Below, in pieces: positions 10,356 through 51,551 of a stretch of 56,176 nucleotides of DNA. Position 1 is the stretch's first letter; each line of letters starts with the position of its first letter. Below the pieces are notes generated by a model. It was given only the letters and a program-made list of their open reading frames with translations. It was not told the origin of the DNA and ran no database searches. This DNA is from Candidatus Omnitrophota bacterium (GTDB lineage: Bacteria > Omnitrophota > Gorgyraeia > 2-01-FULL-45-10): positions 1-56,176 of the forward strand of contig JAFGJL010000079.1 of the NCBI GenBank assembly GCA_016929115.1, written 5' to 3'. The position numbers and the translations under genes were made by a program.

Positions 10356-10423
10356 AAAATAGGGACAGACACCTATTTTATAGGTCGCGATAGACGCAGA
10401 AAATAGGTGTCTGTCCCTATTTT
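10356..10423. repeat. REP/BIME-like perfect 24-bp inverted repeat
   Basis: AAAATAGGGACAGACACCTATTTT (10356-10379) and AAAATAGGTGTCTGTCCCTATTTT (10400-10423), 20-nt spacer; preceded by short AAAATAGGT tandem copies. Confidence 0.9.
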
Positions 10424-47878: not shown

Positions 47879-47956
47879 AACTATTCTACGAATTCTGAAA
47901 AACTTGTCAATTGGCGATTTCTGCTATTTCACGACTTTTTTCTACTTTTGAAAAAT

Positions 47957-47992
47957 AAAACCCCTGCACGCGAAGAATGCGGCAGGGGTTTT
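47957..47992. terminator. Bidirectional intrinsic terminator
   Basis: AAAACCCCTGC-N14-GCAGGGGTTTT. Confidence 0.8.
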
Positions 47993-48000
47993 CATTTTAT

Positions 48001-48030
48001 GTCCCTCCGGCGCTCCTATTCGTCGCACCT
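48001..48030 (+). repeat. Partial/degenerate copy (D) of the tRNA-associated hairpin element
   Basis: GTCCCTCCGGCGC-TCCTATTCGTC-GCACC, same loop as elements A-C. Confidence 0.5.
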
Positions 48031-48223
48031 ACCTCTAAGGGAAGGGGAATTTTAAGCGGCAGCCCGAACCGACCCTCCCAAGTATGTTTGGTTTTACTTT
48101 TAAACATGATTAATGCGCTACCTCTTTCTCAAAGTTAAATGAAGGCATGCGCAGGTGGCCGATCTCCTTCTTCCCCGGACCTCGGCTTAAGACAATAAGC
48201 GGGATTTTTTTCTCTAAAAGATA

Positions 48224-49808: not shown

Positions 49809-49879
49809 CGACCCCTCGGCTTTGCTATGCCTCGACAAGCTCGGCATTCGCCCTGAGCCTGCCGAATGGCTCGGGGTCG
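49809..49879. repeat. Intergenic inverted-repeat element
   Basis: CGACCCC ... GCATTCG-CCCTGAGCCTGC-CGAATGGC ... GGGGTCG. Confidence 0.55.
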
Positions 49880-49986
49880 TCCTGAGCAAGCTCGTGAATA
49901 AAAGCTCGAAGCGCGCCAAAGGACGATTAACTAACAGAGTATCGACTAAGAGTTGTGAAATTCCTCGACGACAAAACGCAACAAAA

Positions 49987-50052: not shown

Positions 50053-50130
50053 TGGTAGCCCCAACCGGATTTGAACCGGTGTCTTATGGCTGAGAACCAT
50101 ACGTCCTAGGCCGGGCTAGACGATGGGGCC
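50053..50130 (-). tRNA. tRNA-Glu (CTC)
   Basis: GGCCCCATCGTCTAGCCCGGCCTAGGACGTATGGTTCTCAGCCATAAGACACCGGTTCAAATCCGGTTGGGGCTACCA; cloverleaf folds by eye, CCA encoded. Confidence 0.93.
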
Positions 50131-50210
50131 AAAAATTGTGAAACAATTTTTGATGCTGAGGCGGCGTTAAGCGGCCCGACAAATAGGAGGGCCGTAGCCG
50201 CCGAAGCACC
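50131..50210 (-). repeat. tRNA-abutting structured element A
   Basis: GGTGCTTCGGCGGCTACGGCCC-TCCTATTTGTC-GGGCCGCTTAACGCCGCCTCAGCATCAAAAATTGTTTCACAATTTTT; ends at the 5' end of tRNA-Glu and begins on the GIY-YIG stop codon. Confidence 0.75.
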
Positions 50211-50473
50211 TAATAGCAACCTGTATTGCTTATCAAAGTCAATTTTTTGCTGCGACTGTACTCTTGTATCTCTAATTCTCGTTTCCTGGCAGCAGATTTC
50301 GTTCCTAGTTGTTCACAATAGACCAATTCCACCGGATGTCTAAATCGCGTAAATCTGCAACCCTGCCCTTTGTTATGCGTCGCAACTCGCTTGCTTACAT
50401 CGTTAGATATACCGGTATAGAACTTGCCGTCGGCGCATTTTACAATATAGACTGACCAGGGCCTACTATTCAT
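50210..50473 (-). CDS. GIY-YIG nuclease superfamily protein
   Basis: 87 aa; WSVYIVKCADGKFYTGISNDVSKRVATHNKGQGCRFTRFRHPVELVYCEQLGTKSAARKRELEI. Confidence 0.88.
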   Translation of the reverse strand: MNSRPWSVYIVKCADGKFYTGISNDVSKRVATHNKGQGCRFTRFRHPVELVYCEQLGTKSAARKRELEIQEYSRSKKLTLISNTGCY

Positions 50474-50497
50474 GCTAGAGAGTCACTTGGCTGATTA

Positions 50498-50577
50498 GGT
50501 CCTTCGCTTCGCCTGAAATCCTCCTATTCGTCGGATTTCATGGCTCGTTCAGGATCAAATTTTCTTCGAAAATTTGG
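50498..50577 (+). repeat. tRNA-abutting structured element B
   Basis: GGTCCTTCGCTTCGCCTGAAATCC-TCCTATTCGTC-GGATTTCATGGCTCGTTCAGGATCAAATTTTCTTCGAAAATTTGG; ends on the CCA of tRNA-Leu. Confidence 0.78.
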
Positions 50578-50659
50578 TGCGGAGAGGGGGATTTGAACCC
50601 CCATGGGTTGCCCCACATGCCCCTCAAACATGCGTGTCTGCCAGTTCCACCATCTCCGC
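50575..50659 (-). tRNA. tRNA-Leu (GAG)
   Basis: GCGGAGATGGTGGAACTGGCAGACACGCATGTTTGAGGGGCATGTGGGGCAACCCATGGGGGTTCAAATCCCCCTCTCCGCACCA; class II tRNA, CCA encoded. Confidence 0.93.
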
Positions 50660-50681
50660 AAGATCATCAAAGATCGGAATA

Positions 50682-50843
50682 TCATTTAATGCCGCGTAAC
50701 TTCCAGAAGATATTCCTTCTTCCGGGAGTCGCCACGGCAAGCAACATCTCATGCACCGCCTGAAGCCACTCCATCTTCTTCTTGGGCGGCACCTTTATGG
50801 AGCGCTCGATCTTTTCTTTGTCCGTCTCCCATCCAAATTTCAT
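50682..50843 (-). CDS. Small basic partner protein (53 aa) of the nucleotidyltransferase; not in the ORF track
   Basis: MKFGWETDKEKIERSIKVPPKKKMEWLQAVHEMLLAVATPGRRNIFWKLRGIK; ATGA overlap (50840-50843) with the upstream gene. Confidence 0.7.
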   Translation of the reverse strand: MKFGWETDKEKIERSIKVPPKKKMEWLQAVHEMLLAVATPGRRNIFWKLRGIK

Positions 50844-51340
50844 CGGCCTCGCCTCTTGATCCTGTCGATCTCTTTAAGCACGTTTATGTCCAGCCGGTCC
50901 ACCGGTCGGCCGGCAGCCCTCTTCATCTTCATGAGCTTCTTTATCGATATGACAGGCACAGCAAACTCGCCGACCTTGACGCGCACCTTGTCTTTCGCGG
51001 CTCCAGCATACTGAACCGGAGAATCCACAATAATATCAACTTCCTTCAGATCTTCTTCCTTGTAGAAGTTAAATGCCTTCATGTGCTTATTTTTTATCCA
51101 ATCCGCCCTTGTTTTTTTATCGGCGATATCGATCGGAGCTACGGGTTGTTTTACCCGATACCCTTGAGATACAAGGATATTTACGATCTTTTTCAGATTA
51201 CCATCAGTCATCTCGACGAGAATGTCCATATCATGTGTGGCGCGCTCGCCGCCGAGCAAATTAAAAGCTATGCCCCCAACAAGCACATAACGAACCTTCT
51301 GCCTCTGAAATTCCTTGAGTATCTCTCCGTAGAGTATCAT
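50840..51340 (-). CDS. AbiEii/DUF6036-like nucleotidyltransferase (possible toxin)
   Basis: 166 aa; VRYVLVGGIAFNLLGGERATHDMDILVEMT; C-terminal RAAGRPVDRLDINVLKEI. Confidence 0.75.
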   Translation of the reverse strand: MILYGEILKEFQRQKVRYVLVGGIAFNLLGGERATHDMDILVEMTDGNLKKIVNILVSQGYRVKQPVAPIDIADKKTRADWIKNKHMKAFNFYKEEDLKEVDIIVDSPVQYAGAAKDKVRVKVGEFAVPVISIKKLMKMKRAAGRPVDRLDINVLKEIDRIKRRGR

Positions 51341-51408
51341 GCGCCCCCTGAGGGTATTACATTATAGCTAAACTCGCTGCAAAATCAAGTGTTGTGTACT
51401 GTTAAGAA

Positions 51409-51480
51409 GGTCCTTCGGACGCTCCTGTTCGTCGCGTCCTCAGGATCAATTTTGCCCAACTTATTATCCGGCAAAATTGG
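51409..51480 (+). repeat. tRNA-abutting structured element C
   Basis: GGTCCTTCGGACGC-TCCTGTTCGTC-GCGTCCTCAGGATCAATTTTGCCCAACTTATTATCCGGCAAAATTGG; ends on the CCA of tRNA-Gln. Confidence 0.78.
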
Positions 51481-51551
51481 CTGACGGGCTAGGATTTGAA
51501 CCTAGACAAACAGATCCAGAGTCTGTTGTGCTACCGTTACACTACCCGTCA
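51478..51551 (-). tRNA. tRNA-Gln (CTG)
   Basis: TGACGGGTAGTGTAACGGTAGCACAACAGACTCTGGATCTGTTTGTCTAGGTTCAAATCCTAGCCCGTCAGCCA; anticodon CTG, CCA encoded. Confidence 0.93.

Follow-up and report, generated by a model that had tools for sequence, protein, structure and literature searches.

The interval between the tRNA-Leu and tRNA-Glu genes on a contig of a Candidatus Omnitrophota bacterium is probably a minimal selfish cassette that targets tRNA ends and consists of one GIY-YIG gene of about 85 residues with structured inverted ends. The window, i.e. the whole stretch of DNA analysed here, is 56,176 nucleotides long and belongs to a 1.5-Mb genome assembled in 79 contigs. Comparison with relatives shows, at the level of sequence, mobility or turnover of such cassettes, targeting of tRNA genes, a strand rule, duplicated tRNA ends and conserved hairpins. 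The mobile-cassette reading extends well beyond the window and is supported by independent lines of evidence.

A GIY-YIG gene and its hairpins between two tRNA genes

On the minus strand, the order of features is tRNA-Gln(CTG) (51478-51551), which opens a Gln-Leu-Glu tRNA order common to relatives, at the 3' end of tRNA-Gln a solo hairpin element (51409-51477, minus strand, identified by sequence, fold and family) that has no GIY-YIG gene, a nucleotidyltransferase-like gene, tRNA-Leu(GAG) (50575-50659), element B (50498-50574), the GIY-YIG open reading frame (50210-50473), element A in inverted orientation (50131-50210, plus strand) and tRNA-Glu(CTC) (50053-50130). The tRNA-Leu and tRNA-Glu genes were identified by ARAGORN and Rfam, and the GIY-YIG gene lies on the same strand as both. 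Element A was assigned from its sequence, fold and covariation in the family, and element B from its sequence, folds and membership of the element family. The left boundary of the cassette is the CCA end of tRNA-Leu, directly 3' of which element B starts; the right boundary is the 5' end of tRNA-Glu, where the H1 hairpin of element A abuts base 1. The 444-nt insert contains the GIY-YIG gene as its sole gene, and no integrase is encoded. The TAG stop codon (50212-50210) has its last base, 50210, in common with the outer end of element A. The array thus has the order and coordinates given in the original prediction, including the shared base, as checked with ARAGORN, Rfam, Pfam and the sequence itself.

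The GIY-YIG protein is a single UPF0213-like domain of 87 aa (PF01541, 56.4 bits, Pfam span 6-77). Residues Y9, Y19, G21, R29, H33 and E66 are invariant in an alignment of 15 sequences. The protein has both the domain and the conserved Tyr, Arg, His and Glu residues of the GIY-YIG superfamily, and Y9, Y19, R29, H33 and E66 would fit its active site. We know of no mobility among UPF0213 proteins. Two of them in the PDB are relatives by sequence, 1ZG2 (BH0048, E 2.6e-14) and 1YWL (EF2693, E 2.1e-11), and the deposited molecules are named hypothetical. Searches of NCBIfam and PHROGs returned no named family. Classical homing endonucleases carry a DNA-binding domain beyond GIY-YIG. The window protein has no such C-terminal region after its nuclease domain, and its target choice may thus rest on DNA structure or on a partner protein.

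Elements A and B belong to a family of double hairpins (H1 and H2) of about 80 nt, which on the element strand read CC(A)-H1-GATCCTGA-stem-GACGAATAGGA-stem'-GAAGGACC. The H1 hairpin varies from copy to copy and is usually rich in A and T. In H2, an outer and an inner stem are separated by a GA/GA internal loop, and the hairpin is closed by a conserved loop of 11 nt. The H1 of element B (50556-50576) is AT-rich and extends into CCA; it is followed by an H2 with the outer stem GATCCT/AGGACC, the GA/GA internal loop and the loop GACGAATAGGA. Elements A and B are not identical. They align with a score of 15 (best of 2000 shuffles, 7.5), have GAT-CTGA...GAC(G/A)AATAGGAG...GAAG-ACC in common, and both fold as DNA (z = -6.2 and -2.6, respectively).

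A search of the 1.5-Mb genome for the exact core GACGAAYAGGAG gave 14 occurrences, against about 0.4 expected by chance according to our own estimate. An extra core, GACGAATAGGAG, lies on the minus strand at 48013-48024, in the intergenic stretch 47879-48223. A stem-free pattern matched 53 copies, spread over 15 of 57 relatives, and none when reversed; such counts, obtained from pattern searches, are minima. In 31 distinct short copies, the free stems are complementary without exception (CCT with AGG, CCC with GGG) and the inner stem is paired through many base combinations. Pairing extends to 97.9% of cells among ten long copies, with double changes at 18 of 25 pairs; none of 500 shuffles reached as high a value, and no slid register comes near. 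The element family is, as judged from this pairing, structurally constrained.

Element copies are placed after tRNA 3' ends, before tRNA 5' ends in inverted orientation, and, also inverted, immediately 5' of a Shine-Dalgarno-like sequence with its start codon, with a nearby ATG in 11 of the 25 copies that have a definable H1. The flank beside H1 tends to (T)GG outward at all placement types. As short imperfect palindromes that occur both solo and in inverted pairs, the elements resemble REP sequences. Inverted solo elements just 5' of Shine-Dalgarno sites were observed at L216, L220, L222, L231, L233, L239 and L243, a position from which they may influence how the gene that follows is translated. 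A hammerhead-like resemblance (CUGA...GAA) was considered and dropped.

Other repeats were observed in the same window. A compound REP-like palindrome at 49810-49880, CGACCCCTCGGC...GGGGTCG, is of CCTGAG/GAGG style and lacks the GACGAAYAGGA loop. A different sort of REP-like hairpin is formed at 10356-10423 by a 31-nt inverted repeat between two genes, with arms AAAATAGGGACAGACACC and GGTGTCTGTCCCTATTTT. The left side of the contig (860-2288) is occupied by tandem repeats that are 243 or 258 nt long and 65-79% alike.

Empty and occupied tRNA sites in relatives

The Gln-Leu-Glu tRNA order allows the same site to be compared between genomes, all of them fragmented metagenome-assembled genomes. 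The empty tRNA-Glu/tRNA-Leu sites that the original prediction had proposed to look for were found: among five close relatives or family members (G003, G004, G009, G014 and G025), the Leu-Glu gaps are only 12, 21, 27, 31 and 33 nt long, and the more distant genomes G036 and G040 have gaps of 14 and 20 nt. In G001, the gap is 187 nt and harbors both hairpin ends with no gene. Another hairpin element, each unit of which terminates in a repeat of the final 20 nt of tRNA-Leu, occupies the site in G018 (one unit) and G011 (two tandem units). In G021 and G010, the GIY-YIG cassette at the site is of another subfamily and has inverted ends of its own, TACT(T/A)CGC...GCGAAGTA. A single genus, g15, includes an empty site (G014), an element-only site (G018) and a GIY-YIG cassette (G021). 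The presence and absence of the gene at orthologous sites is as for free-standing GIY-YIG homing endonucleases.

A second site, between tRNA-Val(TAC) and tRNA-Asp(GTC), is empty (19-59 nt) in five genomes and occupied in five. The module of the window recurs at Val-Asp and Thr-Tyr tRNA pairs with proteins that are 64-70% identical, and further copies are found at Leu-Glu or Val-Asp in other Omnitrophota. In a tree with few strongly supported forks, the clade of the window protein mixes sites, and a second clade, of Val-Asp copies, keeps to its own site. As a pattern, this corresponds to homing to an allele interrupted by occasional jumps. Within the same tRNA cluster, the Gln-Leu interval is a second variable one: in the window (50660-51477), it contains an element copy and the nucleotidyltransferase-like gene (50840-51340, minus strand), and in G003 the two tRNA genes are 62 nt apart.

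The association with tRNA genes holds for several phyla. A tRNA gene lies within 300 bp of 42 of 90 small GIY-YIG genes from relatives, and tRNA density around these genes is 1.4-1.9 per kb up to 100 bp vs 0-0.05 per kb beyond 1 kb. In the contig set, linked genes were 12/24 in Omnitrophota, 4/6 in Patescibacteria, 1/1 in Elusimicrobia and 1/1 in Ignavibacteria, and no linkage was found in Gammaproteobacteria (0/13), Betaproteobacteria (0/3) or Chlamydiae (0/5), which indicates that the family also has non-mobile members. In six chosen genomes, 17 of 27 loci are linked, a value biased upward since these genomes were picked for one gene seen beside a tRNA. When loci from several phyla were pooled, a same-strand tRNA was present within 300 bp at 80 of 180 distinct loci and an opposite-strand tRNA at none of the 180; more than half of small GIY-YIG loci have no detectable tRNA nearby. 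In viral contigs, the only homologues were nine distant ones, all of them lacking a tRNA within 1 kb, so that the search revealed no viral vector.

A second GIY-YIG subfamily (YTKRYAPW...FEKYLKSGSG) was observed at L285-L294 and L304, with its own ends TTCTACTTCGC...GCGAAGTAG. Its left end usually starts at the 3' end of an adjoining intact tRNA (Leu, Asp, Met, Gln, Glu, Ser or Pro), sometimes with a 16-nt duplicated tRNA end. In G006 (contig C16; L064:3282-3508), a group I intron (RF00028, 87.9 bits) splits a tRNA-Tyr beside a GIY-YIG cassette, a free-standing gene beside an intron-bearing tRNA that recalls, by analogy, collaborative homing.

Duplicated tRNA ends, a possible mechanism and its alternatives

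Of 65 genes that lie behind a tRNA, 16 are followed by a copy of the 3' part of that tRNA (2.4 on average and at most 6 in swapped controls). These duplications mostly stop at the tRNA 3' end, and among the 13 whose end is clear, 9 start no more than 6 nt from C56 in the T loop. Where the gene lies before a tRNA, the 5' part is copied ahead of the gene in 17 of 52 cases (controls: mean 1.3, maximum 6), usually from nt 1 to nt 13-38. Since the copy always corresponds to the tRNA resident at the site, we interpret it as a duplicated target. No such tRNA fragment accompanies the cassette of the window. The window genome has a second small GIY-YIG gene, on contig C64 before a tRNA-Asn, and here nt 1-29 of this tRNA are duplicated. 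At L154, a tRNA-Glu-like copy 3' of the GIY-YIG open reading frame is split by GC-rich palindromes near its apparent D-arm and anticodon regions, with an intact tRNA-Glu further downstream; palindromes seem to insert into tRNA fragments there.

Empty and occupied sites, recurrence at other tRNA pairs, same-strand linkage and duplicated ends together give good support to the original prediction of a mobile or homing cassette with structured inverted ends at tRNA boundaries. Its further suggestion, that the nuclease may recognise or mobilise the hairpins, is hypothetical: solo copies also lie at tRNA ends and 5' of Shine-Dalgarno sites, and genomes with a close GIY-YIG homologue carry elements more often but only weakly so (p = 0.07). 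G001 has seven element copies and no close GIY-YIG gene, and G013 also has hairpins without one. That prediction had also named what would speak against it, namely elements away from GIY-YIG genes together with a lack of empty-site polymorphism; such elements were indeed found, but the polymorphism does exist.

A model of break followed by repair copying is suggested by the phage nuclease SegB, which cuts inside tRNA genes, together with the duplications that start in the T loop. The nuclease or a relative may break tRNA genes in conserved arms, in the T loop for 3'-side insertions and in the D or anticodon arm for 5'-side insertions, and the cassette would be copied into the break during repair. 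It would thereby insert at mature tRNA-gene ends, always on the tRNA strand, leaving the tRNA intact. In many insertions, the segment from the internal break to the tRNA terminus would be duplicated with one complete tRNA remaining, and only insertions that leave one intact tRNA would survive. The strand rule would be accounted for if the GIY-YIG gene were expressed via the tRNA transcript and its message released by tRNA processing. The hairpin ends probably serve as structures for recognition or processing; they can also be present where the gene is absent, and can reach additional tRNA ends and places immediately 5' of Shine-Dalgarno sites.

Cassettes and hairpins might instead be passengers moved in trans, either by a RAYT/IS200-type Y1 transposase acting on REP-like hairpins or by a tyrosine recombinase using tRNA 3' ends as attB, with the GIY-YIG gene as a hitch-hiker. 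The elements are REP-like, most genomes have Y1_Tnp genes (five in the window genome), and duplicated tRNA 3' ends are a classical trace of integration at tRNA genes. However, the genome with most elements (G006, 21 copies, 82% complete) has no match to Y1_Tnp (PF01797), element and Y1 numbers are uncorrelated (rho = -0.14), and the element core was found in none of ten RAYT loci examined, which disfavours a RAYT as mobiliser. A recombinase would fit less well with duplicated segments that match the resident tRNA of any isotype, as in target duplication and not as from a fixed attP, and with 5'-side insertions that duplicate tRNA 5' ends, which is unusual for integrases. We thus regard movement in trans as unlikely.

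The strict same-strand position directly behind or before tRNA genes, and the clade that keeps its Val-Asp site, would also suit a host enzyme tied to tRNA, e.g. in trailer processing or in repair at tRNA genes, with synteny reflecting co-expression. Sites that are empty in close relatives, the many tRNA isotypes, the different GIY-YIG subfamilies at one site, the in-frame stops in some copies (L111, L214 and L287) and the duplicated tRNA fragments make this highly improbable. We give even less credence to the hairpins being RNA regulatory or terminator structures of the tRNA or downstream gene, unconnected with the nuclease. Their strong covariation and the solo copies just 5' of Shine-Dalgarno sites point that way, but the transcribed strand varies, with GACGAAYAGGA at tRNA 3' ends and its complement 5' of Shine-Dalgarno sites and at tRNA 5' ends, which suits a DNA element. 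Moreover, an Rfam search of the window and two loci gave no family for the hairpins. A selfish, tRNA-end-targeting cassette is our preferred reading of the Leu-Glu interval.

It is possible, if not quite probable, that this cassette represents a widespread and previously undescribed class of minimal bacterial mobile elements, each with a GIY-YIG protein of about 85 aa and lineage-specific structured inverted ends. These would make a staggered break between the T loop (or the D/anticodon arm) and the tRNA end and leave a tRNA-preserving target duplication, and their non-autonomous hairpins would colonise other tRNA ends and leader regions.

Comparison with known systems

The hairpins resemble REP/RAYT systems in being short and covarying, in forming inverted pairs around a small nuclease gene and in having solo, non-autonomous intergenic copies. 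They differ in that the enzyme is a GIY-YIG and not an HUH/Y1 protein, in their exact placement at tRNA ends, and in the lack of the element core at the ten RAYT loci. As in tRNA islands of tyrosine recombinases, an intact tRNA on one side is accompanied by a duplicated tRNA 3' end on the other, present in relatives and absent in the window copy. Unlike these islands, the cassettes are below 0.5 kb, encode no integrase, switch isotypes and also insert at tRNA 5' ends with 5' duplications, which do not fit that pattern. Among eukaryotic elements, Penelope-like retroelements have a GIY-YIG endonuclease (PMC3846280) that makes target duplications, and Dada transposons use tRNA genes as targets (PMC8869645); both are larger and contain a reverse transcriptase or DNA transposase.

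Small GIY-YIG genes and tRNA-linked GIY-YIG homing in phages are already known. In the open-access literature, which was the scope of our search, we recognised no description of tRNA-linked small GIY-YIG cassettes in bacterial chromosomes; tRNA is hardly mentioned in PMC1564403. The mobile-cassette reading would supply a class of tRNA-directed nucleases of fewer than 90 residues and would account for many of the tRNA fragments and hairpins that are repeated close to tRNA genes in candidate phyla. Bacterial genomes commonly encode small GIY-YIG proteins, most of which take their name from the domain alone. Many of them would gain a testable role, as selfish parasites of tRNA genes outside phages.

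The Leu-Glu cassette is best read, by analogy, as comparable to SegB, a free-standing GIY-YIG homing endonuclease of T-even phages. GTTCSAWTY, the complement of the SegB motif RAWTSGAAC, is by our own reading the T-loop sequence. Passages of PMC13096335 describe SegB as enriched near tRNA genes of many isotypes and as cutting within tRNA genes at this motif, and refer for the original work to Brok-Volchanskaya et al. 2008. According to the same passages, SegB acts in phage genomes through homologous recombination between them, and these passages describe no structured inverted ends, solo hairpins or tRNA-end duplications. The window protein differs also in being a single 87-aa domain. The likeness lies in a GIY-YIG gene beside tRNA genes of many isotypes, which in SegB, as those passages have it, promotes inheritance or amplification of its own region, and in a cleavage motif that would match the T-loop sequence where many of the tRNA duplications described here begin. 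The bacterial cassettes would thus offer a parallel to the phage SegB system.
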